Shown: in pieces, positions 2,129 through 45,085 of the stretch | Position numbering within the stretch: the first letter of the stretch is position 1 | How the letters are laid out: the number at the start of each line of letters is the position of its first letter | Origin: Modestobacter sp. VKM Ac-2982 | GTDB taxonomy: Bacteria; Actinomycetota; Actinomycetes; Mycobacteriales; Geodermatophilaceae | NCBI RefSeq assembly: GCF_026967935.1 | Contig: NZ_JAPVBL010000007.1 | Location: 124,001 to 188,000 of the forward strand | Direction: 5' to 3' | DNA: 64,000 bases | The notes under the pieces: generated by a model | The model's database searches: none | What the model saw: the letters and a program-made list of their open reading frames with translations, nothing else | What the model was told of the DNA's origin: nothing | Made by a program: the position numbers and the translations under genes

Positions 2129-3100
2129 TCAGCGGGTCGGGTCGAGGACGAGCTTGCCGGTGGTGCGCCGGGCGAGCAGGTCCTGGTGGGCCTCGCGGAC
2201 GGCGGTCAGCGGGTAGCGGCCACCGGAGACCGGCTTCAGGGTCCCGTCGGCGACCATCGCCAGCAGGTCGGTCATCGCGGCGTCCATCATCTCGGGCCGG
2301 GTCATGCAGTGCGCCAGCCAGAAGCCGATGACCGCCCGGCTGGTGCCCATCAGCGCGGGTACGGCGACCGTGGCGGGGGCCTCCCGACCGGCCATGCCGT
2401 AGGCGACCAGCCGGCCGAAGGGTGCCAACGCCGACAGCGACCCGTCGAACACGTTGCCGCCGGTCATCTCCAGCACGATGTCGACGCGCTTGCCGCCGTT
2501 GGCCTCCCGGAGCGCGGCGGTGAAGGCCTTCGGGTCGTCGGTGGCCAGCGCCGGGTCGACGGTGGCGTCGGCGCCGAGGGACGCGGCCAGCTCCCGCTTC
2601 TCCGGGCTGGAGGCGGTGGCGATGACCCGGCCGGCGCCCCAGCGCTTCGCCAGCTGGATCGCCAGGGTGCCCACCCCGCCGGCGCCGGCGATGACGACGA
2701 CGGACTCGCCCTCGGCCAGGTGGGCGGAGGTGCGCAGCAGGTGCCAGGCGGTGGCGCCCTGCAGGACGACGGCCAGCGCCTGCTCGTCGGTGACGCCGTC
2801 GGGCACCGGCCAGGTCAGTCGCGGATGAGCGGCGACCTTCTCCGCGTAGCCGCCGCCGGGCAGCAGGCCCACCACGCGCTGGCCGCCACCGGCCGGGGTG
2901 CCGACGAACTCGGCCCCCGGGATCAGCGGGAGCTGCTGCTTGGCGAGGTAGCTGTCCTCGGTCTGGTGTGTATCCGCAAAATTGACCCCGCAGCTCGAGA
3001 TGTCGAACAGCTGCTCGCCGTCCCCGGGGACGGGGTCGGGCAGGTCGACGACGTCCATGACCTCGGGGCCGCCGAAGCGGGTGATCTGCACAGCACGCAT
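2129..3100 (-). CDS. NADPH:quinone oxidoreductase, zinc-independent MDR family (intact parent of the dispersed repeat)
   Basis: 323 residues. The N-terminal GroES-like domain (about 1-115) starts MRAVQITRFGG and carries GVNFADTH (38-45). The nucleotide-binding domain has the glycine motif AGAGGVG (138-144). No structural zinc-binding cysteines are visible, as in QOR-type reductases, which reduce quinones or enones with NADPH. A -10 box TAGCCT (minus strand, 3107-3112) ends 6 bases before ATG, so the transcript is probably leaderless. The first ~45 codons recur as truncated copies further right. The codons for VNFADT here end in A or T (about 2960-2990), unlike the rest of the gene and unlike the copies. 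Confidence 0.9.
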   Translation of the reverse strand: MRAVQITRFGGPEVMDVVDLPDPVPGDGEQLFDISSCGVNFADTHQTEDSYLAKQQLPLIPGAEFVGTPAGGGQRVVGLLPGGGYAEKVAAHPRLTWPVPDGVTDEQALAVVLQGATAWHLLRTSAHLAEGESVVVIAGAGGVGTLAIQLAKRWGAGRVIATASSPEKRELAASLGADATVDPALATDDPKAFTAALREANGGKRVDIVLEMTGGNVFDGSLSALAPFGRLVAYGMAGREAPATVAVPALMGTSRAVIGFWLAHCMTRPEMMDAAMTDLLAMVADGTLKPVSGGRYPLTAVREAHQDLLARRTTGKLVLDPTR

Positions 3101-3112
3101 GCGGTGAGGCTA

Positions 3113-3834
3113 TGGCCTTCCCCACGCTGAACGTGACGGGCGGTGTGCTTGCCGCCGCAGTACTGAGTGGGGGCTGCACTCTGGTGGCTGCCTCTCAGCT
3201 GGCGCGATACGGCGTCTTATCGCCAGTGGCCAGGCTGATCACATCGTGGTTTGTCGCGTCGGTCCCGAGGCCGGTGAGCGTTCGAAGCACCGGTGGTGCG
3301 CCCCGAGGCCAGGAATGCGCGTTGAGCGCTGTGCGCATACGGTGACCGGCACCGTCGGTCTCCTCGGGCAGGTCACCGCGCGCTGTCGGCGACACGGCGG
3401 CCCTGGACGGCCCGACATCCAGTTGCCCTCGCGCGCCAGGTCGTCGCACGAGCACTGGGCGGGTCTCCGGACAGGTAGCTGACGACTTGTGGGACGTCCC
3501 TCCCGAACGCACGGTGACTGCCCTCCTGCGTTCATCGCCGCACTGCGCCGTGCGCTGGAGCCGGACCGACGTCCGCGCGGATGGCGCACCCCTGAGATTC
3601 GATGTCGCCTGTGGTCGTGAGGACGACTCTCGCCGGAGACGAGCAATCGCTGCGGCCGACTTGCCCGCGGTGCGATGCGTGGATCCTCCAGCTGGCAAGA
3701 GCGTGCTGATGCTGTCGGCCACAGGTCCCACTGCGCTGGGTCGATGCGGTCACTGGCGCGTCCGGTGAGGGAGGGGGCTTGCCCTGAGCGCCCAGGCGGG
3801 TCGCGCCTGGGTGGCGCATCGCGCCAGCTATTTG
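3113..3834. other. Gene-free stretch between the quinone oxidoreductase and TetR genes
   Basis: About 720 bases without a credible gene: frames are open only through high GC, lack family motifs, and contradict one another. A short hairpin (CTGGCG-C-GATA at 3199-3209 against TATCGCCAG at 3218-3226) is visible. The stretch is somewhat less GC-rich than its surroundings. A segment near 3160-3190 vaguely resembles the sequence to the right of the repeat copy near 31350. Confidence 0.5.
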
Positions 3835-3852
3835 TGTACCGGAGCGTAAAAT
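3835..3852 (+). promoter_or_regulatory. Leaderless -10 box and candidate autoregulatory site of the TetR gene
   Basis: TAAAAT (3847-3852) ends 6 bases before the ATG at 3859, the usual geometry of an actinobacterial leaderless promoter. The word TGTACCGG with a GCG-AA flank (3835-3849) overlaps it. A similar word, TGTACCGGGCGGAA, occurs at 4594-4607 upstream of the aldo/keto reductase. A shared TetR-type operator is plausible but the dyad is weak. Confidence 0.4.
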
Positions 3853-3858
3853 GAGGGC

Positions 3859-4461
3859 ATGGGTGGTTCCCCGCGTCCCGTCGGTCGCCCCAGGCAGTTC
3901 GACATCGATGACGCGCTCGATGTTGCAGTCCGGCTGTTCTGGGAGCGGGGCTACGAGGGGGCCAGCCTCGCCGACCTGACCGGCGCCATGGGCATCACCA
4001 AGCCGAGCTTCTACGCGGCCTTCGGCAGCAAGGAGCAGCTCTTTCGTCGAGCCTTGGACCGCTACACGGAGGGGCCGGCTTCCTATGGTCTGCGGGCGTT
4101 GGAGGAGCCGACGGCGCGGCAGGTCGTGGCGGCGTTCTTCGATGGAGCGGTCCGGGCTACAACCCCTCCGGAGGGACCGGCCGGATGTCTGGGTGTCCAG
4201 GGCGCACTTGCGTCGAGCAGTGGGGGCCAGGCCGCGCACGACGTGCTCGCCGGCTGGCGCAACGATGCCGGCGACCGCTTGGCGGAGCGCTTTCGGCGAG
4301 CTGCCAAGGAGGGGGACCTCCCGTCGGATGCCGACCCGCAGAGCCTGGCGCGTTACGTCATGACGGTGGGTTTCGGCATCGCCGTCCAGGCCGCCAGTGG
4401 CGTCAGCCGCAAGGACCTCCAGCTGATCGCCGACGTCGCGCTGCAGAACTGGCGGCCTTGA
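3859..4461 (+). CDS. TetR/AcrR-family transcriptional regulator
   Basis: 200 residues. The N-terminal helix-turn-helix (about 15-60) is typical of the family: [20 protein letters not shown], then [32 protein letters not shown]. The C-terminal ligand domain contains [12 protein letters not shown], as seen in TetR regulators of aldo/keto reductases and other redox genes. The ATG at 3859 follows a TANNNT box by 6 bases, so the mRNA is probably leaderless. The next plus-strand gene is an aldo/keto reductase, its likely target together with its own promoter. Confidence 0.9.
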
Positions 4462-4593
4462 GGACGGTCGGCTCACCCGGCTGAGAGGCACCAGCTCGAC
4501 GACGGCGTTGTGCGTGACGTCGCCGTCGAGGTAGCCGGCCAGCGTTGAACCCCCACGAGGTGACTGCGCCCGGGTGCCTCGCCGTCCAAGTTA

Positions 4594-4607
4594 TGTACCG
4601 GGCGGAA
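4594..4607 (+). promoter_or_regulatory. Candidate TetR operator upstream of the aldo/keto reductase
   Basis: TGTACCGGGCGGAA contains the imperfect dyad TACCG-GG-CGGAA and repeats the word seen over the tetR -10 region at 3835-3849. It lies about 150 bases before the reductase start. The functional link is inferred from the word sharing and gene order only. Confidence 0.3.
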
Positions 4608-4755
4608 TAGAACCCCATGGGTCGAGGTTCACAGCACGGATGGCCGATCGCAACGCCGCGAGGCGCCTCATCCGTCACTGACCGCTCCACTCACTCCCTC
4701 ACCGGCATCGGTAGAGGCGATCCACCACTCACTCGCGCAGGAAGAGGACCAAGAC

Positions 4756-5727
<972 letters not shown>

Positions 5728-6188
5728 CGGACCCACGAGACGGCGAGGCCGCGCAGTTGCGTCGAGGACGCACGACAGGCGACTGGGCCGGCCTCATCCG
5801 TGACGGGAAACCTCTGGCGACCTCGGCAGCCTGAACCGATCGGGCCTGACCAGTGCGACAGTCACGACCCGGTGCGGGTGTGCGCAGCGCAGGAGTGTCC
5901 GTGCGGTCGACCGTAGGCATGCGTGGCCGGGTCGTGCCGGTGCACCGATCGACGTTGACGCCATCGCATGGTCCACGACGGTGGCCACTTCGTAGCCCGG
6001 CTCGCCTGTACGGCCATGCCCCGTACAGGCGTGGCGCGATGTCACGCAATCGGCACCTCGGGCTGTGACCTGGGAGTGCGTCGGGCAATCAGTCTCATCG
6101 CCCAGTTCGACACCCAGGCGTCCCCGTTGTGACGCCGACGTCCCCGAGCGCCAGCTCGACATCCAATCCGATCGAGAAGGAGCAGGTC
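5728..6188. other. Intergenic region with a palindrome
   Basis: No credible gene in 460 bases. The one clear structure is the palindrome at 6004-6030 listed separately. The Gfo/Idh/MocA gene starts at its right edge. Confidence 0.5.
6004..6030. promoter_or_regulatory. Perfect 10-bp inverted repeat, probable operator
   Basis: GCCTGTACGG (6004-6013) and its exact reverse complement CCGTACAGGC (6021-6030) flank 7 bases. It lies about 160 bases before the Gfo/Idh/MocA gene. The TGTACGG half-site is close to the TGTACCGG words near the TetR and aldo/keto reductase genes, which suggests, without proving, a common regulator. Confidence 0.4.
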
Positions 6189-7340
6189 ATGACGACCGGG
6201 GACGTACTCGGACGAGCCACCAGGCCCAACGACCTGTCAATGTCCAGCGACGCAACTCGCCGGCCTCTCATCGGCGTGGGCGTCGTAGGACTGAGCGCGA
6301 CGGGAGGCTGGGGTGCCGGAGCACACCTGCCGGCTCTGTCGACGGTCGGCGGGTTCGAGCTGCGTGGGCTGGTGGGGAGCTCGCCCGCGTCGGCTCGTGC
6401 GGCGAGCGCGGTGCACGGGGTGCCCGCATACGCATCGGCCGGAGCACTGGCGGAAGCCGACGACATCGATCTGGTCGTGGTGACGGTGAAGACACCGCAG
6501 CACCGCGATCTCGTGCTGCCCGCCCTCGGTGCCGGCAAGGCGGTGTTCTGCGAGTGGCCCTTCGCCGTCGACCTCCGCGAAGCAGAGGACATGGCCGCAG
6601 CAGCGCAGGGCATTCCCACTTTCGTGGGCTTGCAGGGACGCTCCTCGCCCACCTTCCGCTGGCTGGCCGACCTCGTGTCGAACGGCTTCGTAGGCGAGGT
6701 GCTCTCCGTGACGATCTCCACGGCGGCCACAGAGTGGGGCACACCCGTCTCAGAACGCATGCTCTACACACTCGATCGGCAACTCGGCGCCACGATGATG
6801 GCCATCGCCTTCGGCCACGCCATCGACTCCGTGTCGATGGTGGTCGGAGAGCTCCAGGACGTGGTGGCAACGACGGCGATCCGGCACCCGCACGTCCCGC
6901 TCATCCACGGTGGACGGGATGTTCCGATGACGGCCGAGGACCAGATCGCGATCTCCGGTACCTTGCCCGGCGGCGCGGTCCTCTCTGCTCATCAGCGGGG
7001 CGGGATCGCCTCGGGAGCCGGCTTCTCGATGACCGTCGACGGCTCGGACGGCACTCTCCAGGCCACCGCACCGAACCACCCGCACGTCACGCCGGTCACC
7101 GTGCGTGGCGCACGAGGTCATGGTCGCCCAACCGAGATGCCCCTCCCCGACGGCTACGACCAGTACCCCCGGCTGGCCCGGTCGCCGATCCACACTCTGG
7201 CGCACGCGTACGGCGGGATCCGCGACCAGCTCCTCGGCGGCGCCGCCGTGGTTCCCGACTTCGACGACGCCGTCATTCGGCACCAGCTCCTGGACGCCAT
7301 CACACGCTCCGCCGCCAGCGGCCGACGCGTGCACCGCTGA
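6189..7340 (+). CDS. Gfo/Idh/MocA-family oxidoreductase, Gal80-like
   Basis: 383 residues from the ATG at 6189, preceded at about 8 bases by GAAGGAG. The N-terminal Rossmann domain reads GVGVVGLSATGGWGAGAHLPAL (residues 29-50). The dinucleotide-binding EKP motif is replaced by EWPFA (122-126), the variant found in Gal80-like members. The rest is the alpha/beta dimerisation domain, with a substrate-site-like stretch GHAIDSV. Such proteins use NAD(P) on sugars or imines, or act as NADP sensors. It follows the aldo/keto reductase but is separated by 460 bases, so it may have its own promoter. Confidence 0.88.
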   Translation: MTTGDVLGRATRPNDLSMSSDATRRPLIGVGVVGLSATGGWGAGAHLPALSTVGGFELRGLVGSSPASARAASAVHGVPAYASAGALAEADDIDLVVVTVKTPQHRDLVLPALGAGKAVFCEWPFAVDLREAEDMAAAAQGIPTFVGLQGRSSPTFRWLADLVSNGFVGEVLSVTISTAATEWGTPVSERMLYTLDRQLGATMMAIAFGHAIDSVSMVVGELQDVVATTAIRHPHVPLIHGGRDVPMTAEDQIAISGTLPGGAVLSAHQRGGIASGAGFSMTVDGSDGTLQATAPNHPHVTPVTVRGARGHGRPTEMPLPDGYDQYPRLARSPIHTLAHAYGGIRDQLLGGAAVVPDFDDAVIRHQLLDAITRSAASGRRVHR

Positions 7341-8289
7341 GGTGAGCATCCGCTGACGTGTGCCTGGAGGAGCCGGTCGTTTGGCCAACTCGCACAGTGA
7401 GAGCACCGGGCGGTCCCGTCGCACCCTACGGATGGAATCGGTGACCACCGCACCACCGCCTACGGGCACGTCGACCGCCTCTGTGCCTGCTTCCTGAGCC
7501 GGCGGCATCTCCTCGAGCCACGCATCCTCGCTTCGGTGATGGCTGAGTTCCGCCGGCCAGTTCCCTCCCGCTCGTCGCCGAGGACCTCGGCGTGACGCTG
7601 GGTTCCATTGGTTGGACAGTCACGGTGATCGCGGTCGCGCCAGCCGACCCAGCAGGGGGAACGCGTTGTAGCTCAGCCCCGGCGTTCTGCGCGCTGCAGG
7701 TTGCGGATGAGCTTTGCTCGCCTCGGCGACCATGCCGGCGGCCGGCGCGGACCGCGAACCACACCGGTCCAGCACGCACCAGGCGGTTCCGCGTCCGATC
7801 AGAACGACGTCGGACAGCCTGGACCATCGTTACGCGAGCCGCATCAGGGACGTCGTCCACCCTGACGACCACCCGCTCCCGGTCCCGACGCCGGACACCG
7901 ACTGACCAGCCGGTCGCGGGCTTCGCACCGGACCGGCGGGGCGGGAGAGGCGCCGCCGCCTGGCGTCGTTGCTGGAGCCGTTGAACTGACGGAACGGCCG
8001 TGGCGTCGGGGCCGGCCCTGGGCTGATGGCGCGACCAGACGACCGCCGACGACGCAGTGGCACCTGCCGTGGGCAACGCCTGCCGAGCTGTGGTCGTCGA
8101 GCGCGACCAGGCTGTCGGGCGTGGCCGGCAGCTTCGTCACTGGGATCGCGACGGTATGACCACGAGGCGGTCCAGGTCGGGGTTCGCCAGCGTAGCGACG
8201 CCCCAACCTCCCGAAGTGGAAGGGAGTTGCCGCCGAAGCGGGCGGCCCGGCTCAGGCAAGCGTCGGTGTCGACCCCCGAGCACCTGACT
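7341..8289. other. Gene-free stretch left of repeat copy B
   Basis: About 950 bases with no recognisable gene. Frames such as 7592-7984 (+) give arginine- and proline-rich translations with no domain. It could be a decayed remnant, but no similarity to another part of the window is visible by eye. Confidence 0.5.
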
Positions 8290-8445
8290 TCAGTTGGACG
8301 CAACGCGGTGGTGGGTGTCGGCGAAGTTGACGCCGCAGCTGGAGATGTCGAACAGCTGCTCGCCGTCGCCGGAAGTGGGGTCGGGGAGGTCGACGACGTC
8401 CATGACCTCGGGGCCGCCGAAGCGGGTGATCTGCACAGCACGCAT
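8290..8445 (-). repeat. Dispersed QOR-5' repeat, copy B (51-codon truncated quinone oxidoreductase)
   Basis: ATG at 8445 to TGA at 8290: the first 45 codons match the intact gene at 3100 (MRAVQITRFGGPEV to GVNFADTH), then the frame switches to a different tail HRVASN and stops. A -10 box TACGGT (minus strand, 8452-8457) ends 6 bases before the ATG, so the promoter was copied with it. The copy lacks the entire nucleotide-binding domain and cannot be an oxidoreductase. The same breakpoint and a related tail occur in copies C, D, F and H. Confidence 0.93.
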
Positions 8446-8515
8446 GTCCCGACCGTAGGTCCTCGGCTGCCGGCCGGCCTCGGTGGTGCGGTCGCGCTCC
8501 TGGTCGGCGGCGTCG

Positions 8516-9373
8516 TCAGGTGTGCTGCGCGACGTCGTGCTCGGTGTCCGAGGTGGGCAGGGCGGCGGAGGCCAGGAGCGCCAGCTTGTCCGCGGCATCC
8601 GAACCGGCGTCCGGGTGGTAGACGACCAGCATCAGGTCGTCGGTGCCGTTGACGGCCAGGCGCTCCCGGTTGAGCGTCATCTCCCCGACCTGGGGGTGGT
8701 CGAGCCGGATCGGCGCCCCCCACTGCCGGCGTACCTCGTGCCGGGCCCAGAGCTGCCGGAACCGCGGGCTCCCCAGCGTCAGCTCGCCGGTGAGCTCGAT
8801 GAACCGGGGATCGTCGCCGTCCGTGCCGACGGCCTGCCGGAGGTTCGCGATGAAGCACTCCGTGACCTGCTCCCACTCCCGGTGCAGCGCCTGCTGGGCG
8901 GGATCGAGGAAGAGGTCACGCAGCTGGTTGCCCCCGACGGCGAGGCCGGGGGAGAGCGCGGTCGCCATGCGGTTCGCGGCCAGGATGTCGAAGTAGCGGT
9001 CCTCGATGAAGGCCGGCTGCACAAGGGAGTCCAGGAGCTTGAGCACCCCCGCCGGCGGGGTCTGCTTGCGCGGCCGACGCTTCCGCTGCCGGGGGACCTC
9101 CGCGGCCAGCGTCTGCAGGTGGGCGAAGTGGTCGTCGTCGAGCTGCAGCACGCGGGCGATGGACTCCAGCACCTGCAGTGACGGATGACGGTCGCGGCCC
9201 CGTTCCAGCCGGAGGTAGTAGTCGGCGCTGATGCCGGCGAGCATCGCGACCTCCTCCCGCCGCAGCCCCGGCACCCGCCGCACCCCGCCGTCGGGGATGC
9301 CCGCCTGCTGGGGCGTCACCAGCTCGCGCCGGGCCCGCAGGAAGGCTCCGAGCGGATTCGCCGACTCGTCCAC
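8516..9373 (-). CDS. XRE-family regulator with MmyB-like C-terminal domain
   Basis: 285 residues from a GTG at 9373. The HTH (about 25-75) reads VRRVPGLRREEVAMLAGISADYYLRLERGR, followed by a MmyB-type ligand-binding domain with YFDILAANRMATAL and MTLNRERLAVNGTDD. The family commonly controls a divergent SDR gene, and here an SDR starts at 9512 on the other strand. A -10 box TAGGGT (minus, 9381-9386) ends 7 bases before GTG, so the mRNA is probably leaderless. A remnant of this 5' end plus the intergenic region is duplicated near 13250-13420. Confidence 0.9.
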   Translation of the reverse strand: MDESANPLGAFLRARRELVTPQQAGIPDGGVRRVPGLRREEVAMLAGISADYYLRLERGRDRHPSLQVLESIARVLQLDDDHFAHLQTLAAEVPRQRKRRPRKQTPPAGVLKLLDSLVQPAFIEDRYFDILAANRMATALSPGLAVGGNQLRDLFLDPAQQALHREWEQVTECFIANLRQAVGTDGDDPRFIELTGELTLGSPRFRQLWARHEVRRQWGAPIRLDHPQVGEMTLNRERLAVNGTDDLMLVVYHPDAGSDAADKLALLASAALPTSDTEHDVAQHT

Positions 9374-9511
9374 GCCAGCGACCCTAGGCCGCTGGCAGCG
9401 ATCAGTGGGGGTCCTGTCAGACCCCAGGCTGCAGAGGGCCCTGGGTGACCCCGTTCCCGGTCCATAGCGTCCACAGCGGCCCCTTCGGGCGGAGCACTTC
9501 GAGAGGACGCC

Positions 9512-10195
9512 ATGACCGTCACCCTGATCACCGGCGCCAACAAGGGCATCGGCTTCCAGACCGCCAGACAGCTCATGGAGCTGGGGCACACCGTCTACAT
9601 CGGCGCCCGGGACGTCGAGCGCGGTGGGAAGGCCGCCGCGGAGATCGGGGCGCGATCCGTCCAGCTGGACGTCACCGACGACGCCTCCGTGGGGAGCGCA
9701 CTCGCGGCGATCGACGAGGCTGAAGGCCGCCTCGACGTCCTGGTCCACAACGCGGGCGTCCTGGAGACCGGGCTCGACGGCCCGGCGGCGCTGCGTTCCT
9801 TCGACGTCAACGCGGTGGGCATCGTGCGCGTCACGGAGGCGGCGCTGCCCCTGCTCCGCCGGTCGTCGAACCCGAACGTCGTCGTCATCTCCAGCAGCGC
9901 CGGGTCGTTCTGGGCGGTGACCAACCCGGAGCGGCCGGAGTTCGGTCTGCCGCTCGCGCTGTACTCGGCGTCCAAGGCCGCAGCCACCATGCTCACGGTG
10001 CAGTACGCCAAGGCGCACCCGGGCATCAGGTTCAACGCCCTCGAGCCAGGCACCACCGCGACCGACATGACCGCCGCCTTCGGGATCGGGCGACCGGTCG
10101 AGGAGAGTGCCCGGGTCGTCGTGCGGCTGGCCACGCTCGACTCGACCGGTCCGACCGGGACCCTCCAGGACGAGGCAGGGGAACTGCCCTGGTGA
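9512..10195 (+). CDS. SDR-family NAD(P)-dependent oxidoreductase
   Basis: 227 residues. It has the cofactor motif TGANKGIG (7-14), the structural HNAG motif and catalytic YSASK with an upstream Ser in ISSSAGS. It is a classical short-chain dehydrogenase of unknown substrate. ATG follows GAGAGGACGCC. The stop overlaps the start of the MMPL transporter gene by four bases (10192-10195), so pump and enzyme are co-translated. The divergent XRE regulator is the likely controller. A deleted second copy lies at 13419-13592. Confidence 0.92.
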   Translation: MTVTLITGANKGIGFQTARQLMELGHTVYIGARDVERGGKAAAEIGARSVQLDVTDDASVGSALAAIDEAEGRLDVLVHNAGVLETGLDGPAALRSFDVNAVGIVRVTEAALPLLRRSSNPNVVVISSSAGSFWAVTNPERPEFGLPLALYSASKAAATMLTVQYAKAHPGIRFNALEPGTTATDMTAAFGIGRPVEESARVVVRLATLDSTGPTGTLQDEAGELPW

Positions 10196-12411
10196 GCGCC
10201 GGCGAAGATCGGGTGCCCGCGCCTGCCTCGCCGGGCGGCGCGGCGAGCCGCGGGCCGCTGTTCGCCAGGTCGGGCGCCTGGGTCGTCCGCCGCGCCCGCG
10301 TGGTGCTCGCCCTCGCGGTCGTGGGCCTGCTGATCTCGGCGGCCCTGGCGGTGGGGGCCTTCGGGGCCCTGAAGGACGGCGGGCGGGACGACCCCGCATC
10401 GGACTCCAGCCGTGCTCAAGCCCTGCTGGACCAGAACTTCCCCGGCGAGCCGAACATGGTCTTCCTGGTGCGCGCACGGGACGGGGACGTGGACGCTCCC
10501 GCCGTGGCGGCCAGCGGCAGCGCTCTCGCCGCGCGGCTCGCTGGTGAGTCCGGCGTCGCCGGTGTCATGTCCTACTGGGACACCGGTGCCCCGAGCCTGC
10601 GGTCCACCGACGGCGCCGACGCCCTGATCCTGGTCACGGTGGCGGCCGGGGAGGAGCAGGGCGATCGTGCCGGCGATCTGCTGGAGGAGTACGCGGAGGT
10701 CGACGACGAGGTCGCCACCGTCGCCATCGGCGGGTCGTTGGGCACTGACATCGGCAGTCAGGTCGGCAAGGACATCGCTCGGGCCGAGGCGATCGCGGTG
10801 CCGGTGACCCTGCTGCTCCTGCTCCTCGCGTTCGGCACCGCGGTGGCGGCTGTCCTGCCGATGGCGATCGGCACCCTGGGCATCGCCGGTGCCTTCGCCG
10901 TGCTGTTCGTGTTCACCCGCTTCACCGACGTCAGCGTCTTCGCCATCAACATCACCACCGCCCTGGGGCTGGGGCTGGGCATCGACTACGCCCTGCTCGT
11001 GGTCAGCCGCTACCGCGAGGAGCTGGCTCGCGGCGCAAGCGTCTCCGAGGCCGTCGTGCGGACCGTGGCGACCGCCGGGCGCACCATCGCCTTCTCCGCG
11101 TTGGCGGTCGCGACGGCGCTGGCAGCCCTGTTGGTGTTCCCGGTCTACTTCCTCCGATCCTTCGCCTACGCGGGGATCGCGGTCACGCTGATCTCGGCCC
11201 TGGCGGCCATCGTCGTGCTGCCCGCTCTGCTGGTCGTCCTGGGCCACCGCGTCAACGCCGGCAGGCTCCCGCTCCTCCGGGAGCGCGGTAGCGAGTCACT
11301 GGTGTGGGGTCGCATCGCCCGGGCCGTCATGCAACGTCCCCTGGTGACCGGTCTGCCCGTTGTCGCCGTCCTGCTGTTCGCCGCCAGCCCTCTGCTCGGC
11401 GTCACCTTCAGCTCGCCGGACGATCGGGTGCTGGCCGCCGACCACCCGGCCCACCAGGTGGGGGATGCGCTGCGGTCCGGCTACGTGTCGAACGCTGCCG
11501 GCACGACCGACCTCGTCCTCACCCCGGCTCCCGCACGCGCCGAGCTGGCTGACTTCACCCGGGCCCTCAGCGTCCTGCCCGGCGTGGTCGGCGCCGACAG
11601 CAGCGTCGGGAGCTTCGCTGACGGGGAGCCGGCGGAGCCGACCTCGGACCCCGGTGCCCTGGACGGCGGCGGACACGCCTGGATCACCCTCTCCTCCGAC
11701 CTGGACCCGGCCTCGGCAGACGCGCAGGACCTCGTCCGCCAGGTGCGGGCCCAACCGGCTCCGCCCGGCAGCGAGGTCCTGGTCGGCGGCCGCACGGCCG
11801 AGCTGATCGACGCGAAGTCGGCGATCGCGGGGAGCCTGCCGCTGGCGGGCGCGATCATCGCGGTCAGCACGTTCGTGCTGCTGTTCCTGTTCACCGGCAG
11901 CATCGTGCAGCCGGTGCGGGCGCTGGTCGGCAACCTGCTGACCCTCGGCGCCACGCTCGGCGTGGCCGTGTGGATCTTCCAGGAAGGGCACCTGTCCGGG
12001 CTGCTCGGGTTCACTCCCACGCCGACCGACACGGCCATGCCCGTGCTGGTGTTCTGCATCGCCTTCGGGCTCTCGATGGACTACGAGGTCTTCCTGATGA
12101 GCCGGATCAAGGAACTGCACGACGCGGGGGCGAGCACCGCTGAATCGGTCACGGTCGGGCTGGCCCGCAGCGGCCGGCTCGTGTCCACCGCGGCGGGGCT
12201 CATCGCCGTCAGCTTCTTCGCCTTCGCCGTCAGCGAGGTCAGCTTCATCCAGCTGTTCGGCATCGCGGCCGGGCTGGCGATCTTGCTGGACGCCACCCTC
12301 GTGCGGGGCGTGCTCGTTCCTGCCTCCTTCCGCCTGCTGGGGCGATCCGCCTGGTACGCCCCGGCTTTGCTGCGCCGCTTCCACCACCGGTTCGGCCTCA
12401 GCGACGCCTGA
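10192..12411 (+). CDS. MMPL-family RND transporter
   Basis: 739 residues. It shows the MmpL/RND pseudo-duplicate design: a membrane helix at about 30-55, a soluble loop, then a block of about five helices (about 200-355). A helix near 380 is followed by a second loop and a second helix block (about 540-710). GLGLGIDYALLVVSRYREEL and FGLSMDYEVFLMSRIKEL are the two conserved Asp-Tyr motifs of the family, used in proton coupling. These pumps export lipids or hydrophobic drugs. Its GTG start overlaps the SDR stop. Two mutually exclusive hairpins follow at its 3' end. Confidence 0.93.
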   Translation: MSAGEDRVPAPASPGGAASRGPLFARSGAWVVRRARVVLALAVVGLLISAALAVGAFGALKDGGRDDPASDSSRAQALLDQNFPGEPNMVFLVRARDGDVDAPAVAASGSALAARLAGESGVAGVMSYWDTGAPSLRSTDGADALILVTVAAGEEQGDRAGDLLEEYAEVDDEVATVAIGGSLGTDIGSQVGKDIARAEAIAVPVTLLLLLLAFGTAVAAVLPMAIGTLGIAGAFAVLFVFTRFTDVSVFAINITTALGLGLGIDYALLVVSRYREELARGASVSEAVVRTVATAGRTIAFSALAVATALAALLVFPVYFLRSFAYAGIAVTLISALAAIVVLPALLVVLGHRVNAGRLPLLRERGSESLVWGRIARAVMQRPLVTGLPVVAVLLFAASPLLGVTFSSPDDRVLAADHPAHQVGDALRSGYVSNAAGTTDLVLTPAPARAELADFTRALSVLPGVVGADSSVGSFADGEPAEPTSDPGALDGGGHAWITLSSDLDPASADAQDLVRQVRAQPAPPGSEVLVGGRTAELIDAKSAIAGSLPLAGAIIAVSTFVLLFLFTGSIVQPVRALVGNLLTLGATLGVAVWIFQEGHLSGLLGFTPTPTDTAMPVLVFCIAFGLSMDYEVFLMSRIKELHDAGASTAESVTVGLARSGRLVSTAAGLIAVSFFAFAVSEVSFIQLFGIAAGLAILLDATLVRGVLVPASFRLLGRSAWYAPALLRRFHHRFGLSDA

Positions 12412-12443
12412 GGCCGCGAAGCTCCTCGGCGTCGCTGAGGAGC
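12393..12443 (+). terminator. Overlapping inverted repeats after the MMPL gene, terminator or attenuator-like
   Basis: CGGCCTCAG (12393-12401) pairs with CTGAGGCCG (12408-12416), and GCTCCTC (12421-12427) pairs with GAGGAGC (12437-12443). A longer alternative pairing joins CCTCAGCGACGCC (12396-12408) to GGCGTCGCTGAGG (12428-12440), 13 bp perfect. The three folds cannot all coexist. The site spans the MMPL stop and lies 30 bases before the next gene. Confidence 0.5.
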
Positions 12444-12474
12444 GCACTCTGCCACGACGCAAGGAGCTCCGACC

Positions 12475-13167
12475 ATGACGACCATCGGCATCCTCGGCGC
12501 TGGGCAGGCGGGGAGCACCCTCGCCCGAGCGTCGATCGCGGCCGGCTACGACATCGTGATCGCGAACTCGCGAGGACCGGAGTCGCTGGCAGGTCTGATC
12601 AGCGAGCTGGGCCCACGGGCTCGCGCTGCGCACGCAGCGGAGGCCGCGGCGGTGGCCGACTTGGCGGTCGTTGCGTTCCCGTACACGCCCACCGCCCGGC
12701 TACCGGTCGAGGAGCTCCGGGGCAAGGTCGTGATCGACAACAACAACTACATGGTCTGGCGCGACGGGCACATCCCCGAGGTCGACCTCGGCCGGAAGAC
12801 GATCCATGAGCTGCGTCAGGAGCAGCTGCCCGCGTCGAAGCTCGTGAAGGCCTTCTCACACGTCCACTTCCACGAACGCCACCCGATCCGCGTCCCGGGC
12901 GACAGGATGCCTGCCCTGCTCCGGCTGGCCAGGCCGCCCGGCGCACCCGACCGGAAGGCGTTGGTCGTCTCGAGCGACTTGCCGGACGCCGTCGAGCTCG
13001 TCACCCGCCTGTACGACGACCTCGGATTCGACGCGGTCGACAACAGCCCACTCAGCGACTCATGGCGCAGCGCCCCGGGAACGCCGATGTGGCGCCATCA
13101 CGTCGACGGACAGAGCCGCGAGGAGCTCGTCCACAACCTGCGGCGCGCAGACCGGATCACAGGCTGA
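12475..13167 (+). CDS. NADPH-dependent F420 reductase-like NAD(P)-binding protein
   Basis: 230 residues. The N-terminal Rossmann motif GILGAGQAGSTLAR (4-17) and the FPYTP and IDNNNY loops match the family of F420:NADP oxidoreductase-like proteins (NADP_Rdtase/F420 oxidoreductase group). ATG follows AGGAGCTCCGACC. The C-terminal half (from about residue 120) is duplicated almost unchanged at 37862-38200 as an isolated fragment. The substrate is unknown; many members of this group are not true F420 reductases. Confidence 0.85.
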   Translation: MTTIGILGAGQAGSTLARASIAAGYDIVIANSRGPESLAGLISELGPRARAAHAAEAAAVADLAVVAFPYTPTARLPVEELRGKVVIDNNNYMVWRDGHIPEVDLGRKTIHELRQEQLPASKLVKAFSHVHFHERHPIRVPGDRMPALLRLARPPGAPDRKALVVSSDLPDAVELVTRLYDDLGFDAVDNSPLSDSWRSAPGTPMWRHHVDGQSREELVHNLRRADRITG

Positions 13168-13249
13168 TGTCGAGTCCTGTTCCGAGGGTCGATGGCGGTC
13201 GGCCGGTCGTCCTACAGCGGCACTGTCGCCACGCATCGCCGGTGCGTTG

Positions 13250-13418
13250 AGCCGGGCCGACCCCGTCGACTCGAGCACGTCAGCGACCCGGGGCCGCAGT
13301 CGGCGATCAGCGGGGCCCCGTCGCACCCCAGGCCGACCAGGGCTCTGGGTGGGTCGGTCCCCGGTTCACAGCCTCCAGAACGGCCCCCTTCGGGGCCGAG
13401 CACCTCGAGAGGGACAAC
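13250..13418 (+). repeat. Duplicated XRE/SDR intergenic region (second copy)
   Basis: This stretch matches the XRE-SDR intergenic region at about 9360-9511. Matching blocks include CGACTCG..CACG.CAGCGACC (the start of the XRE gene), GCGATCAG.GGGG.CC, ACCCCAGGC, GGGCCCTGGGTG-like words and the CGGCCCC.TTCGGG run just before ATG. It thus carries the SDR promoter and a few codons of the divergent regulator, but no regulator gene. Confidence 0.75.
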
Positions 13419-13592
13419 ATGACCGTCACCCTGATCACCGGGGCCCGCACCACCGCGACCGACATCACCGCGGCGTTCGGCATCGGACGCCCGGCCGAAA
13501 TGAGTGCCCGGGTCGTCGTGCGGCTGGCCACCCTCGACGCGACCGGCCCCACCGGAACGCTCCAGGACGAGGCCGGGGAACTGCCGTGGTGA
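13419..13592 (+). pseudogene. SDR scar: internally deleted copy of the 9512 SDR
   Basis: A 57-codon frame joins the first nine codons of the SDR (MTVTLITGA) to its last ~48 (TTATDITAAFGIGRP to DEAGELPW). About 510 bases in between are lost without breaking the frame. It lacks the NNAG and YxxxK motifs, so it cannot be an enzyme. The stop still overlaps the next start (GTGA), exactly as the intact SDR does with the MMPL pump, but the pump here is of the MFS class. It may serve only as a translated leader for the MFS gene. Confidence 0.85.
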
Positions 13593-14806
13593 GCACCTGT
13601 GAACACCAGGAGCGTCCCGCAGCCGGCCCGCGCGCAGCGACGGGCGGGACCGGCGCGACGGCGGAGCGCTCGTCCTGGGCCGGCGTCGTCTCGCTGAGCC
13701 TCGGGATCCTCGCGATCGTCATGTCGGAGTTCCTGCCGGCGAGTCTGCTGCCGCGCATGGCCGAGGACCTTCACGTGTCGGCCGGTGCGGCGGGACAGGC
13801 CGTCAGCGTCACCGCGTTCGCCGCCGCACTGTCGGCGCTTTTCATCTCGGTGGTCCTGCCGCGTGCCGACCGGCGCCGCGTCATGATCGGGCTGACGCTT
13901 CTCGCCGCGATCTCGAACCTGGTCGTTGCCTTCGCGCCGAACCTCGTCGTGCTGCTGTCCGCGCGGCTCCTGCTGGGCGTCGCCCTCGGCGGGTTCTGGG
14001 CGCTGGCCACCTCGATGGCCGCGCACCTCGTGCACCCCGATCACGTCGGGCGCGCCCTGACCGTCATCAACTCCGGCGTGGCGGCCGCAACCGTCGCAGC
14101 CGTCCCGCTCGGCGCCTGGCTGGGTGGGGTCTGGGGCTGGCGGGGCGTGTTCGTGCTCGGCGCCGGTGTAGCCGTGGTCGCGCTGGCCGTGCAGGCGGCG
14201 ACGCTGCCGAGCGTCGCCCCCACCTCGGCGAGCGGACTCCGGGCGCTCGGCTCGGTCCTGCGCTCCGGCGTGGTCCTGTTCGGCCTGCTCGCGGTCCTGC
14301 TGGTCTTCGGCGGTCACTTCAGCGGGTTCACCTACATCCGGCCCGCCGTGGAGAGCATGTCCGGGATCGACGCCGGCGGCCTGGCGCTGTTGCTCCTCGT
14401 GTTCGGGCTCGCCGCCTTCCTCGGCACGGCGCTGAGCGGCCCCGTGGCCGACCGTGCGCCGCAGGTCGGCCTGCTCCTGTTCCCCGCTGTGCTCGGAGTC
14501 GGGATGCTCGTGATGCTCGGAACCGGCGGTTCGATCGTCGGCCTGTTCACCGCCGCCATGCTGTGGGGCTTCGGGTTCGGGGGTGTGCCGACAACGGTGC
14601 TGAGCTGGGGCGCCAGGACCGAGCCGACGCGGCTGGAGCAGATCGGTGGGCTCATCGTGACGGTCTGCAACGTCGCCATTGCGATCGGCGCGGTCGTCGG
14701 CGGGGTGCTCGTCGACGGCATCTCGGCAGGCACCCCGCTGTTGGTCGGCGGGGCCGCGTCGATCGCGGGTGCCGCAGTGCTGGTGACCCTGCGCCGCCAA
14801 GGCTGA
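13589..14806 (+). CDS. MFS transporter, DHA1/AraJ-like drug efflux type
   Basis: 405 residues from a GTG that overlaps the SDR scar's stop. It is a hydrophobic protein with about 12 membrane helices starting near residue 30 (SLSLGILAIVMSEFLPASLL). The DRRRV loop between helices 2 and 3 is typical of MFS proteins, and the second half contains FTYIRPAVESMSG. It resembles sugar- or drug-efflux MFS proteins (AraJ/YdhP group). The promoter is presumably the duplicated SDR promoter at 13250-13418, whose usual XRE controller lies 4 kb to the left. Confidence 0.9.
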   Translation: MSTCEHQERPAAGPRAATGGTGATAERSSWAGVVSLSLGILAIVMSEFLPASLLPRMAEDLHVSAGAAGQAVSVTAFAAALSALFISVVLPRADRRRVMIGLTLLAAISNLVVAFAPNLVVLLSARLLLGVALGGFWALATSMAAHLVHPDHVGRALTVINSGVAAATVAAVPLGAWLGGVWGWRGVFVLGAGVAVVALAVQAATLPSVAPTSASGLRALGSVLRSGVVLFGLLAVLLVFGGHFSGFTYIRPAVESMSGIDAGGLALLLLVFGLAAFLGTALSGPVADRAPQVGLLLFPAVLGVGMLVMLGTGGSIVGLFTAAMLWGFGFGGVPTTVLSWGARTEPTRLEQIGGLIVTVCNVAIAIGAVVGGVLVDGISAGTPLLVGGAASIAGAAVLVTLRRQG

Positions 14807-14834
14807 CGTCCCGCTCGATCTCCTGGACCTCGGG

Positions 14835-14960
14835 TCAGTTGGCTGCCAGCCGGTGGTGGGTGTCGGCGAAGTTGATGCCGGCTGCGGAGACGTCGTGCAG
14901 GGTCTGGCCCGCACCCGCACCCGCCTTCGTCTCGGGGACGTCGACGACGTCGAACAGCAT
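14835..14960 (-). repeat. Dispersed QOR-5' repeat, copy C (diverged)
   Basis: A 41-codon frame, ATG 14960 to TGA 14835, reads FDVVDVPE, then a divergent middle, then DVSAAGINFADTHHRLAAN and stop. It aligns with codons 13-51 of copies B and D, including the shared tail HHRLxxN. Its first 13 codons and promoter are missing or replaced. Divergence is much greater than for the other copies, so it may derive from a different quinone oxidoreductase paralogue. It lies 28 bases after the MFS stop. Confidence 0.8.
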
Positions 14961-15226
14961 TCCGGCCAGTCCCGCCGGTCGCCGGCGACGCCGGCCGCCG
15001 GGTGCTCGGCCGCGGCGTGGTGGTGAGCCGCCGGACCCAGAGGTGGACGTGGTCGTGCCACGGCGTGTCTCCGGACCGCTCGAGCCAGGGGGTGACCGCG
15101 CGCAGGACTGCTGCGGCCCGGTGGACGACGGCGAGCTCGTCGTCGCGGGCGGACAGGGGGCGCCCGCAGCCCCACCGCTGGTGGCGGGCTTCCCATCGCT
15201 CGCGCGGGCGGCTGCGGGGCCGCCGG

Positions 15227-17703: not shown

Positions 17704-17707
17704 CAGG

Positions 17708-29890: not shown

Positions 29891-30049
29891 TCAGTCGGAC
29901 GACAGCCACTGGTGGGTGTCGGCGAAGTTGACTCCGCAGCTGGAGGAGATGTCGAAGAGCTGCTCGCCGTCCCCGGGGACCGGGTCGGGCAGGTCGACGA
30001 TGTCCATGACCTCGGGGCCGCCGAAGCGGGTGATCTGCACAGCACGCAT
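29891..30049 (-). repeat. Dispersed QOR-5' repeat, copy F
   Basis: ATG 30049 to TGA 29891, 52 codons: MRAVQITRFGGPEVMDIV through GVNFADTH, then tail QWLSSD and stop, with one extra Ser codon. A -10 box TAGCGT (minus, 30057-30062) is 7 bases before ATG. Homology to copy G continues about 85 bases upstream of the ATG (to about 30135), further than between other copies. It lies about 60 bases after the AlkD-like gene stop. Confidence 0.93.
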
Positions 30050-31306: not shown

Positions 31307-31390
31307 GCAGGGCGCGCTAGGTGACGACGTCGACGCAGTGGTAGGGGGCCGACTGCACTCTTGTGCGAGACCCCAGGTCGCCCTGGGGAG
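31249..31390 (-). repeat. Dispersed QOR-5' repeat, copy G with extended upstream homology
   Basis: Codons 1-19 of the quinone oxidoreductase (31249-31306), a mutated -10 box TAGCGC (minus, 31314-31319) and about 70 further bases match copy F, including CGCTAGGTGAC near 31314-31324 and CAGGTCGCCCTGGGG near 31374-31388. The left junction is at GTCGACC, where the XRE gene begins. Copies F and G are direct repeats flanking the XRE pseudogene. Confidence 0.85.
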
Positions 31391-43528: not shown

Positions 43529-43553
43529 GTCACGACAGCCGGTGGGGGTGTCG
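43529..43553 (-). repeat. Possible remnant of QOR-5' repeat tail (copy I)
   Basis: The minus strand reads CGACACCC-CCACCGGCTGTCGTGAC, close to the repeat end CGACACCCACCACCGGCTGT plus the terminal codons found in copies C, D and H, with small gaps. It is the same orientation and, like other copies, lies about 40 bases after a plus-strand stop. The match is short, so it could be chance. Confidence 0.35.
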
Positions 43554-43631
43554 TCACCCGCCGTCGGGGGTCGGCGGTGAGAGGCTCCCGAGCGGTCGCC
43601 TGCGACGGTGACCCGTCATGACGGGAGCTCG

Positions 43632-44963
43632 ATGGCAGTGACGTCCTTGTCCGGAACGGGAGACCTGGCCCAGATGGACCCCCTCGTCGGCGCCGACCTG
43701 CGCATCTCCGTCGGCGGCGAGCAGCGTCGGTACGTCGACCTCGACGCCGCGGCCACGACGTCGGCCTCGGCGGGCGTCGTCCGTGCCGTGCAGGAGTTCC
43801 TGCCGTGGTACTCCAGCGTCCACCGGGGAGCCGGCGCGAAGTCGCAGTTCACCAGCGCCAGGTACGAGCAGGCGCGCGAGACCCTCCTCCGGTTCGTGGG
43901 AGCCGATCCGGCGACGCACGTGGCCCTGTTCCCCCGGAACACCACGGAGGCCCTCAACCTGACCGCCTTCCGGTTGGGCCTGACCCGCGACGACGTCGTC
44001 GTCACCACCGCGGTCGAGCACCACGCCAACCTGCTGCCCTGGCAGCGCCACGCGCAGGTCCGGGTCGTCGACGTCGACGGGGCCGGGACCTTCGACGTCG
44101 CCGCCGTGGTCGCCGCCCTCGACGAGCGGCCCACGCCACGCGTGCTGGCGGTCTCCGGGGCGTCCAACGTCACCGGCTGGATGCCCGACCTCGCCGCGAT
44201 CGCGGCGGCGGCCCGGGACCGGGGTGTGCTGGTGGTGGTCGACGGCGCGCAACTGGTGCCGCACCGCCCGGTGGACATGGCCGCCCTCGGGATCGACGTG
44301 CTCGCGTGGTCCGGCCACAAGATGTTCGCGCCCTTCGGCGCGGGCGGCCTGGTCGTCGACCGCCGGCTGCTCGCCGACGGCGAGCCCTTCCTCGTCGGGG
44401 GTGGGGCGGTGAAGGCGGTCTCGCACGAGGAGGTCATCTGGGCCGACACCCCCGACCGGGACGACGCGGGGACGCCCAACGTCGTCGGCGTCGTGGCCCT
44501 CGCCGCCGCCGCGGAGGAACTGCTCGCCGCGGCAGGGCGGAACCGGGTCCACGAGGACCTGCTCGTCCGGGCGTTGGACGACGAGCTCGCCACCGTCCCC
44601 GGGCTGCACCGCCTGGGGCCGGTGTCCGGCGACCGTCTCCCCGTGGCCGCCTTCGTCATCGACGGGATGTCCCACGGGGAGGTCGCAGAGCGGCTGGCCC
44701 GGGAGCACGGCATCGGCGTCCGCAGCGGGTGCTTCTGCGCCCACCCCTACCTCAGCCGGCTGTTCGGGCTCACCCCGGGCGAGGTGCAGCAGTTCCACGA
44801 CGACGCGCGGGCGGACCGGACCGACCGGCTGCCGGGCGCCGTCCGGGTGAGCTGCAGCTCGGCCACGCCGCTGGCCGACGTCGCCACGCTGGGAGAGGCC
44901 CTGCGCGCCCTCACCGCGCACGCCGGGGACCAGGTCCTGACCCGGCGGCTCGTCCGCGGCTGA
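43632..44963 (+). CDS. Aminotransferase class V, cysteine desulfurase/NifS-like
   Basis: 443 residues from ATG 43632 (GGGAG upstream). PLP-dependent fold: LDAAATTSASAGVV, FPRNTTEALNLTAF, VEHHANLLPWQRH (His stacking on PLP), VDGAQLVPHRP and Schiff-base Lys in WSGHKMFAPFG. GVRSGCFCAHPYL supplies a Cys at the desulfurase loop. It could be a SufS/Csd-like desulfurase or a related lyase. No iron-sulfur assembly genes are nearby, so a dedicated role in Fe-S biogenesis is not supported. Confidence 0.88.
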   Translation: MAVTSLSGTGDLAQMDPLVGADLRISVGGEQRRYVDLDAAATTSASAGVVRAVQEFLPWYSSVHRGAGAKSQFTSARYEQARETLLRFVGADPATHVALFPRNTTEALNLTAFRLGLTRDDVVVTTAVEHHANLLPWQRHAQVRVVDVDGAGTFDVAAVVAALDERPTPRVLAVSGASNVTGWMPDLAAIAAAARDRGVLVVVDGAQLVPHRPVDMAALGIDVLAWSGHKMFAPFGAGGLVVDRRLLADGEPFLVGGGAVKAVSHEEVIWADTPDRDDAGTPNVVGVVALAAAAEELLAAAGRNRVHEDLLVRALDDELATVPGLHRLGPVSGDRLPVAAFVIDGMSHGEVAERLAREHGIGVRSGCFCAHPYLSRLFGLTPGEVQQFHDDARADRTDRLPGAVRVSCSSATPLADVATLGEALRALTAHAGDQVLTRRLVRG

Positions 44964-45052
44964 GGGCCGGTCAGCTCAGCGGGAGGGCGCCCGGACCGGG
45001 GCGGGGGACGACCACCGCACCGGCGCCCGGGCCGTCGCCGGAGCGGCTCCGG

Positions 45053-45085
45053 TCAGTCGCGGGACAGCCGGTGGTGGGCGTCGGC
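45053..45085 (-). repeat. QOR-5' repeat tail, copy H (fused in-frame to a hydrolase)
   Basis: 33 bases encoding ADAHHRLSRD and TGA, identical in layout to the terminal codons of copy D (ADAHHRLSRN). Only the tail remains. It forms the last ten codons and stop of the hydrolase to its right. It lies about 90 bases after the NifS-like gene stop. Confidence 0.8.

Follow-up and report, generated by a model that had tools for sequence, protein, structure and literature searches.

Composite islands of the staphylococcal cassette chromosome (SCC) grow through serine recombinases by repeated insertion at one gene end, some of their elements lacking a recombinase, and cis-mobilizable elements carry att sites and no integrase, are moved by the enzyme of a relative and pile up in tandem. 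Integrons are cassette arrays that grow at one fixed site. The known systems closest to the locus described here are the ssrA islands of Dehalococcoides and the 5'-end elements of the dusA/SXT type. In the passages of PMC3146451 that concern them, the Dehalococcoides islands stand in tandem beside one gene, the target being the 3' end of tmRNA; they are bounded by direct repeats of the gene end (20 bp) and carry mixed cargo. A 15-bp motif beside each repeat has no match to the gene itself, and an integration module was present in 16 of 31 islands, the integrase DsiB being a serine recombinase that is compared with Ccr (PMC3146451). The dusA-specific elements are about 24–37 kb long and have their own integrase according to table rows of PMC8409611, which mentions SXT/prfC alongside; its passages on these elements do not describe stacked, integrase-less cassettes such as those reported below. 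Our literature search found no description of genomic islands with an integrase in Geodermatophilaceae, of genomic islands in Modestobacter, of mobile elements in Blastococcus or Geodermatophilus, or of a quinone oxidoreductase gene serving as attB of a serine integrase.

The window analysed is a 64,000-nt stretch of Modestobacter sp. VKM Ac-2982 (Geodermatophilaceae; GCF_026967935.1, NZ_JAPVBL010000007.1:124,001-188,000), numbered from its first letter. It contains an intact quinone oxidoreductase (QOR) gene and, upstream of it, a series of displaced copies of the gene's 5' end, separated by unrelated cargo. We consider it very probable, from the sequences compared here, that this is an insertion array built by site-specific recombination at one point in QOR codon 46. 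Comparison of the arrays shows that each cassette bears a tail of about 26 bp at one end and a promoter box with the first 46 QOR codons at the other. An insertion thus hands the gene a new start and moves the previous one, to which the newcomer's tail is now attached, to the far side; after several rounds the displaced 5' ends lie stacked in the same direction, the youngest nearest the gene. The features of the window are given below in order of position.

2129..3100, minus strand: intact quinone oxidoreductase, zinc-binding dehydrogenase gene (A), the insertion target (Pfam ADH_zinc_N, E=6.7e-29)
3101..8282: cargo of cassette 1, the youngest by position (Pfam; bounds from the copies)
3859-4461, plus strand: TetR regulator of cassette 1 (Pfam)
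4756-5727, plus strand: aldo/keto reductase of cassette 1 (Pfam)
6129-7340, plus strand: GFO/IDH oxidoreductase of cassette 1 (Pfam)
8283..8445, minus strand: copy B, displaced 5' end (46 codons) and 26-bp tail, break 8309|8308 (self-BLAST, genome search, profile)
8446..14827: B-C cargo, with SDR at 9512, MMPL transporter at 10192, F420-dependent oxidoreductase at 12475 and MFS transporter at 13247 (Pfam)
14828..14960, minus strand: copy C, a diverged 5' end that retains core and tail, break near 14854|14853 (profile about 14830-14954)
14961..17700: C-D cargo, with a DUF429-RelA/SpoT protein at 15227-17134, minus strand (Pfam)
17701..17863, minus strand: copy D, displaced 5' end and tail, break 17727|17726 (self-BLAST, profile)
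17864..22811: D-E cargo, with GNAT acetyltransferase at 18189, acyl-CoA dehydrogenase at 18968 and SpoIIE phosphatase at 20128 (Pfam)
22812..22929, minus strand: copy E, degraded 5' end without break or tail (self-BLAST, genome search, profile)
22930..29883: E-F cargo, with HTH/MLTR regulator at 23794 and an unknown protein at 28592 (Pfam)
22930..29883, further genes of the same E-F cargo, on the minus strand: GyrI-like at 25792, SDR at 25965 and alpha/beta hydrolase at 27579 (Pfam)
29884..30049, minus strand: copy F, displaced 5' end (3-bp insertion) and tail, break 29910|29909 (self-BLAST, profile)
31249..31320, minus strand: copy G, first ~20 codons and upstream region (profile and self-match to F)
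43529..43553, minus strand: copy I, probable remnant with core and 13 bases of a second-type tail (by eye)
45047..45085, minus strand: copy H, tail preceded by the final ~14 bases of the 5' part, break about 45072|45071 (core profile E=1.2e-4)

Searching the genome for the repeat (40 of 360 first-look candidates scored) gave eight matches, all on one contig and inside the window, namely the intact gene and the seven displaced 5' ends B–H. These copies had been listed by an earlier, sequence-only reading of the window and were recovered by self-BLAST together with the own-genome search. Their layout, on the minus strand to the right of the intact gene and hence upstream of it, was also as that reading had it (7/7 copies in this genome); in the family stretches described below, 133/133 copies beside an intact gene likewise lie upstream of it and on its strand. 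Copies E and G are cut short and neither displays the break. G shares upstream DNA with F (29992-30137 / 31249-31392, 83%). Copy I is probably the remnant of a displaced copy: the core and 13 tail bases are recognizable by eye (CCGGCTGTCGTGA, break 43543|43542), but no profile match was obtained for it in the window at E<0.01.

Such an array resembles the Dehalococcoides islands, as the passages mentioned above portray them, in its tandem units, direct repeats of a gene end, a motif beside the repeat that is foreign to the gene, mixed cargo and, if the candidate described below is the cognate enzyme, partial carriage of a recombinase. It differs in its target, the start of an enzyme gene whose promoter box and first 46 codons are exchanged, in reaching up to 13 extra copies (genome G085), and in having a candidate recombinase in just 2 of 81 QOR stretches. 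SCC elements, with their Ccr proteins, use the 3' end of rlmH, whereas the target here is the QOR gene. Compared with cis-mobilizable elements, the recombinase-less form is the rule in QOR stretches; and, unlike integrons, the arrays have a coding gene as their target and no tyrosine recombinase was found in the 81 stretches.

The site of exchange was delimited in an alignment of 23 intact genes with 47 truncated copies, three of an initial 50 having been set aside for indels. The exchangeable 5' part consists of the first 137 bases of the gene (3100-2964), with the break at 2964|2963. All 23 intact genes read CA|GA at this point, while CA|C is found in 43 of the 47 truncated copies (CA|CC in 36 of these) and CA|GC in two. 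A tail conserved up to about base 162 follows the break in truncated copies and is missing from 23/23 intact genes. The fixed breakpoint that the sequence-only reading had described for this window is seen in relatives as well, but the extent of the repeat had to be revised: instead of about 45 codons, the unit starts with a -10-like box at -15, takes in the codons up to the 46th, inside which the break falls, and ends with some 26 tail bases. The common tail of that reading (HHRLSxN/D-like) was likewise found as a conserved stretch of about 26 bp, though it occurs in at least three sequence types among relatives (HHRLSxN-stop). Looking for signs against a fixed unit, we saw no random orientation and no ragged ends on the tail side, though some copies have decayed.

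Just left of the break the gene site and the cassette site are identical (CCCACCA). Because this left half-site is common to gene and cassette, the target would be recreated each time and insertion would be repeatable. Large serine recombinase systems have a two-base core at the centre of a dyad; here, symmetry in type-1 sites is best when centred on CA (12/18, shuffle p=0.0125), against p=0.28 for all tails pooled, p=0.87 for type 2 and p=0.73 for the intact site. Exchange may take place on the CA core, with the cassettes as circles.

With copy D as query (at most seven matches scored per genome), matches were found in 108 of 112 family genomes, with clusters of same-strand copies among the matches listed. 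Array stretches were collected from 81 of the family genomes (2.14 Mb in total); 75 of the 81 include a near full-length QOR gene, and cassettes have a median spacing of 3.4 kb, many of them with a single gene or a few. In an accretion array each unit is bounded by repeats of the target's end in one orientation and the incoming end keeps the target intact, and both traits are seen here. Among the matches listed for 298 order-level genomes (two scored per genome), no arrays were seen outside the family. Four plasmid records have partial matches to the site, none has the full site, and phage records gave no match. An apparent second locus in G028 and G066 is better explained by a single array that was split between contigs: in G066 the contig ends hold parts of one repeat gene, and in G028 they bear the same IS-like sequence; the join is inferred. 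The recurrence of this structure in relatives rules out chance; the sequence-only reading had already judged random duplication a poor fit. More distant QOR paralogues do lie in some arrays, such as that of G092, and could suggest that whole QOR genes were once repeated in tandem and decayed, or that parts of the gene were duplicated at random; the common break, the tail that no intact gene has, the single orientation and the unrelated cargo between copies make this hardly credible.

In certain species a cassette comes first and forms the start of the working gene, while in other species the same cassette is displaced. Thirty-three comparisons of shared cassettes reach the neighbourhood of matching breaks; they overlap in cassettes and are thus non-independent. 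Between intact genes and displaced copies, homology ends exactly at the break (0) in 11 of 19 cases, at -80 to -20 in the other eight, and never beyond. Between displaced copies it ends at +1 to +30 in 7 of 14 and at -267 to -31 in 7 of 14, so that none of the 33 passes the break by more than 30 bases or runs through. A count restricted to 45 bases or fewer from the break (11/12 at 0) is superseded by the wider one. Ends that fall on the break in 11/19 comparisons and never beyond it show repeated insertion at one site, with a fixed crossover point and with occupied and empty sites that differ by one unit. This bears out the model of the earlier reading, in which the gene regains an intact 5' end from every arriving unit and the previous one ends up on the far side. 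The pattern is illustrated by a 6-kb cassette that G085 and G087 have in common (96%): its right-hand 5' copy is 0.99 identical, identity collapsing at the break, and the left-hand copy is at 0.84 (0.66 in one variable window), with tail and cargo mostly at 0.9-1.0. Judged by these identities, the cassette travels with its right-hand 5' copy and without the left-hand one.

Linkage between the 5' part and its flanks was examined in 2 + 2 pairs and then in a larger set, assembled afterwards, of 159 copies (83 truncated, 76 intact) that passed cuts on start, length and similarity. All three tail-linked pairs differ close to the break, 12, 8 and 9 bases to its left. Third-position distances in 44 close pairs of intact genes are highest over bases 66-132 (0.29-0.40), fall to 0.05 over 132-165 and stay at 0.04-0.18 from there on; the first 66 bases are without raised divergence (0.10-0.13). 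The 5' part has been exchanged in most of 27 close pairs. Over all 91 same-genus pairs it diverges only slightly more than the 300 bases that follow (0.86 against 0.89). Linkage to the cassette is incomplete: in two of eight pairs examined, bases 60-137 are no more alike than background (0.69, 0.71), and in both pairs of copy G041:15298 upstream DNA is shared and the 5' part reaches only 0.57 and 0.64.

Such exceptions could arise from homologous recombination alone, if circles or fragments with a QOR 5' copy were integrated through one RecA crossover at any point of the ~140 bp shared, with no dedicated recombinase. The eight ends that stop 20-80 bases short and the linked pairs that lose linkage inside the 5' part fit this account, as does the fact that no tested recombinase family tracks the arrays; the duplicated cassette ends F and G suggest that ordinary recombination is also at work. 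We nevertheless regard it as improbable as the sole process. Eleven of the 19 ends lie exactly at the break and none beyond it. Six of the eight short ends come from comparisons with degraded copies (G010 or G088), in which the codon matches break off at 38, and a switch within 12 of 137 bases in all three tail-linked pairs has a uniform chance of about 3e-4. Crossovers spread across the shared 137 bp were not seen in the linked pairs and end comparisons apart from the short-ended and unlinked exceptions, and a conserved 26-bp tail on unrelated cargo would be left without explanation.

The sequence-only reading saw no recombinase, which holds for the 40 ORFs scanned in the window; a candidate was found in the arrays of two relatives. 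The cassettes read here are without a recombinase, like cis-mobilizable elements. The candidate, a predicted serine recombinase of 487 aa with PF00239, PF07508 and a zinc ribbon (PF13408), was detected in the stretches of G028 and G066 with a profile of 15 ORFs that included these two and one (G024b) read in the wrong frame. At its right end the element shows the core GGGCCGACAGCC.CCA and terminates at the break in both genomes; in G066 the element is joined to a tail that follows a QOR 5' copy in G012 (86% over 171 bp), and its left end was not found. Close relatives of the protein (at least 92%) occur in 3 of 112 family genomes, matches at E<=1e-60 in 5 of 112, and matches at E<=1e-80 in 5 of 397 genomes of the wider order, three of them within the family. 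A serine recombinase common to all arrays was not found: PF00239 occurs in 16/24 genomes and PF07508 in 53/112, with no link to arrays (PF07508 in 30 of the 54 genomes whose stretch holds a displaced copy and in 15 of the 27 whose stretch holds none). The core, sought on both strands across 381,550 bases near 15 further serine-recombinase stretches, gave just five matches, each with two mismatches. The serine recombinase of the two arrays appears to be the best candidate catalyst, and we lean towards a large serine recombinase acting in trans from rare helper elements.

The same site-specific array could instead be the work of a tyrosine recombinase, either a lost or distant integrase or the host XerC/XerD. 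The CCCACCA identity is about the size of a tyrosine-recombinase overlap, and PF00589 is present in 24/24 genomes, including G092 and G025, which have just two matches each, presumably XerC and XerD, and still carry copies. Xer sites are AT-rich, and the core is unlike them. A tyrosine profile built from 20 ORFs at PF00589 places, which recovers its 20 members by construction, had no match at E<=10 in the 81 stretches, nor in an earlier subset of 41 (1.37 Mb), and no PF00589 protein lies in an array among the matches listed. A tyrosine integrase resident in the arrays was rejected on these counts. Since, moreover, the serine-recombinase element ends at the same base, we hold a tyrosine catalyst to be the less likely choice.

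Part of the array cargo matches anti-phage gene models in a PADLOC scan of 129 ORFs (the first 130 of 183 listed, minus one very long ORF; 25 of 95 PADLOC and 25 of 136 Pfam families were displayed). In the window, the DUF429-RelA/SpoT protein matches the PADLOC candidate PDC-S44 (E=1.9e-75). A stretch of about 2 kb of this C-D cargo is 94.6% and 93.7% identical to arrays of another genus (G008 and G010) and 94.4% to one of the same genus (G088). Recurring cargo families are few and reach at most 11 of the 25 regions examined. No gene common to the cassettes emerged, the sole widely shared upstream protein cluster in 25 regions being the truncated copies themselves. Stacking at one fixed site with one att copy per cassette recalls the layout of a true integron with IntI and attC hairpins, and in 80 of 117 units the gene adjoining the tail points towards it, the figure being only 24 of 43 among units below 3 kb. 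That identity is very unlikely, since no tyrosine recombinase was found in the array stretches, the repeat is a coding 5' end, and many cassettes hold several genes on both strands.

A broader view, which we put forward tentatively, is that site-specific insertion at codon 46 has given the Geodermatophilaceae an integron-like platform of their own. The 46 codons would be a permanent, self-renewing docking site at which non-autonomous cassettes, predicted phage-defence genes among them, are stored, shuffled and exchanged between genera, the recombinase occasionally coming from outside. Because gene site and cassette site have one half in common, every insertion or excision by a serine recombinase would yield both sites anew, perhaps with no need for a directionality factor. 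If this idea is true, it would be a natural recombinase design in which insertion never consumes its target. On the main reading, each displaced 5' end is the mark of one past insertion, and the order of the stack gives relative age. Mobile cassettes can be found, ordered and delimited to nearly the exact base across a stress-hardy actinobacterial family of desert and soil, which offers a handle for the discovery of cargo, predicted defence genes included, that otherwise looks like scattered accessory genes.

Seven displaced 5' ends of the quinone oxidoreductase (QOR) gene lie to the right of the intact gene in the window, all on the minus strand, in agreement with the one-sided, single-orientation copies claimed by the sequence-only reading. 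When the organism's own genome (4.78 Mb, 14 contigs) was searched for the repeat, with 40 of 360 first-look candidates scored at a threshold of E ≤ 0.001, eight matches were obtained, the intact gene and the seven copies, and no further match was found among the scored candidates at that threshold.

2129-3100, minus strand: intact QOR gene of the window
Copy I: probable further remnant of the QOR 5' end, recognized by eye alone

Displaced copies leave QOR at a fixed break inside codon 46 and continue into a tail. A cassette is a tail, its cargo, a promoter box and 46 QOR codons, and cassettes stacked at QOR form an array. All 23 intact genes examined read CA/GA at the break (slash), while 47 aligned truncated copies read CA/C in 43 cases (CA/CC in 36), CA/GC in two and otherwise in two. 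The tail is conserved up to about base 162. Upstream of the 5' end, conservation covers a CCTAGCCT box at -15 to -8 and little beyond it, so the shared unit spans about -15 to +162.

Other repeats were observed in the window. Copies F and G have about 85 bp of upstream DNA in common (29992-30137 and 31249-31392), which suggests two occurrences of one cassette end. A 318-bp piece of an F420-dependent oxidoreductase gene (12841-13158) recurs with 92% identity 25 kb away, at 37874-38191 in another part of the array. The stretch between copies B and C includes direct repeats of 157-183 bp and 79-87% identity (9359-9538 with 13264-13445, 10050-10206 with 13447-13603) that adjoin SDR/MMPL and MFS genes. 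Segment 36961-37632, inside an alpha/beta hydrolase gene of the array, matches 48003-47335, outside and past the array, in inverse orientation with 68% identity.

With copy D as a DNA query, 108 of 112 Geodermatophilaceae genomes gave matches; the named ones include Modestobacter, Geodermatophilus, Blastococcus, Klenkia, Goekera and Trujillonella, along with some MAGs, one labelled Streptosporangiaceae. Three genomes of the window's genus (G091, G094, G100), whose best E values range from 8.5e-9 to 9.4e-5, matched only weakly and are possibly without a QOR gene. Among 81 stretches, one per genome, 54 carried at least one copy besides the recognized intact gene, with a maximum of 13 (G085). The fixed orientation and side extend to these relatives: in stretches with an intact gene, 133 of 133 copies lie upstream on its strand, a count in which many stretches reach only 2-3 kb downstream of QOR. 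Thirteen more copies occur in five stretches without a recognized intact gene; in one of these five, G033, a copy at a contig end may be the QOR gene itself.

Single cassettes recur in different species. Genomes G085 and G087 have a 6-kb cassette in common (96% identity), whose right-end 5' copy travels along (0.99), with identity collapsing past the break. Its left-end copy has not moved with it (overall 0.84, one window 0.66), as expected if, as had been proposed, an incoming unit brings its own 5' end. One cassette, among those behind the exact ends counted below, is first in G056 and G065 and second in G047 and G064, where a newer one has been inserted. We counted 33 shared-cassette matches with right ends within 300 bases of matching breaks. 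Where the cassette starts the working gene in one genome and is displaced in the other (n=19), 11 matches, representing about six cassettes rather than 11 independent events, stop at exactly 0 and eight at -80 to -20; six of these eight involve copies of G010 or G088, in which codon matching ends at 38. Where both are displaced (n=14), seven stop at +1 to +30 and seven at -267 to -31. None of the 33 ends lies more than 30 bases past the break, and run-through is confined to intact-versus-intact pairs (7), as expected. Three tail-linked pairs diverge 12, 8 and 9 bases left of the break, which places their exchange there, within a short core.

The array is thus very probably built by site-specific insertion, with cassettes stacking at the QOR break. 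Homologous recombination alone, to which the inexact ends lend some weight, is improbable as the source. Identity at 60-137 was at background in two of eight shared-cassette pairs checked, and both pairs with copy G041:15298 have upstream DNA in common and not the 5' part (0.57, 0.64). These exceptions may reflect ordinary recombination, conversion among copies, or breaks misplaced in copies that have decayed.

Insertion at the break also bears on QOR itself. Most of 27 close same-genus pairs show clearly higher divergence in the first 135 bases than in the following 300 (0.84 versus 0.97 in G103/G102; equal, 0.93 and 0.93, in G000/G105), and over all 91 same-genus pairs the means are close (0.86 versus 0.89). 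In 44 close pairs, drawn from 75 intact genes, third-position distance is 0.10-0.13 over the first 66 bases, rises to 0.29-0.40 at 66-132 and falls to 0.05 at 132-165, with 0.04-0.18 after, so that it drops like a cliff where the break lies. The 5' part correlates by rank with late-gene distance at 0.13, against 0.27-0.31 for control parts; since all these values are low, this test is supportive only.

Pfam scans of 40 window ORFs found no recombinase, which upholds the earlier remark that none is visible there. When the 81 stretches (2.14 Mb) were searched in six frames with home-made profiles, no tyrosine recombinase came up, and the two serine recombinases detected belong to G028 and G066. 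These two proteins, from different genera, have 92% identity, and each lies on a contig that also carries array copies; contig joins that we infer from shared end sequence would set them between array and QOR. The DNA common to both stops no more than 6 bases from a core that resembles the break, GGGCCGACAGCC.CCA. In G066 the core leads into a cassette tail that G012 carries behind a normal QOR 5' copy; this match, 86% over 171 bp, begins inside the core. Judged from these alignments, the element is tied to the array's own crossover base, and its recombinase is a candidate maker of the arrays. Counting against that role, near-identical proteins occur in three of 112 family genomes, the third (G016) at the end of a contig whose examined stretch holds no array copy. 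PF07508 is as common without arrays (15/27) as with them (30/54).

By crude gene calls, successive recognized copies are a median of 3.4 kb apart (n=134; 58 below 3 kb), the longest spacing, 110 kb, indicating that decayed copies can be missed. Of the 117 units in which a gene was called, 80 have their tail-adjoining gene aimed at the tail (24/43 below 3 kb, 46/57 at 3-7 kb, 10/17 above). Among 129 cargo ORFs, PADLOC matches (E ≤ 1e-8, names from 25 of 95 families) include at least PDC-S44 (3), RmrA (2), RmrT (2), capP (2), HamA (1) and HamB (1), all predicted; the Pfam matches listed include regulators, oxidoreductases, transporters, GTPases and others. These labels are family names, not functional tests. 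In the window, the DUF429-RelA/SpoT protein matches PDC-S44, and its stretch of about 2 kb has 93.7-94.6% identity with G010, G088 and G008. A DO-GTPase2-type protein and small partner gene adjoin the intact gene in two genera (G042 and G102; L073:4819-5955, L050:13868-15013), in cassettes otherwise unlike. The G028 array (L080, L081, L129; C3:1-45000) holds several very large ORFs in a row (1740, 956, 1321, 893 and 406 aa), the last McrC-like by sight, and this series looks like a defence island.

We found no account of this array in the literature searched on Geodermatophilaceae islands and mobile elements, QOR integration sites or actinobacterial cassettes. The kind of system is itself known; what is new is the combination of features, the family-wide spread and the few recombinases in the arrays, which make it a variant within known systems rather than a separate kind.
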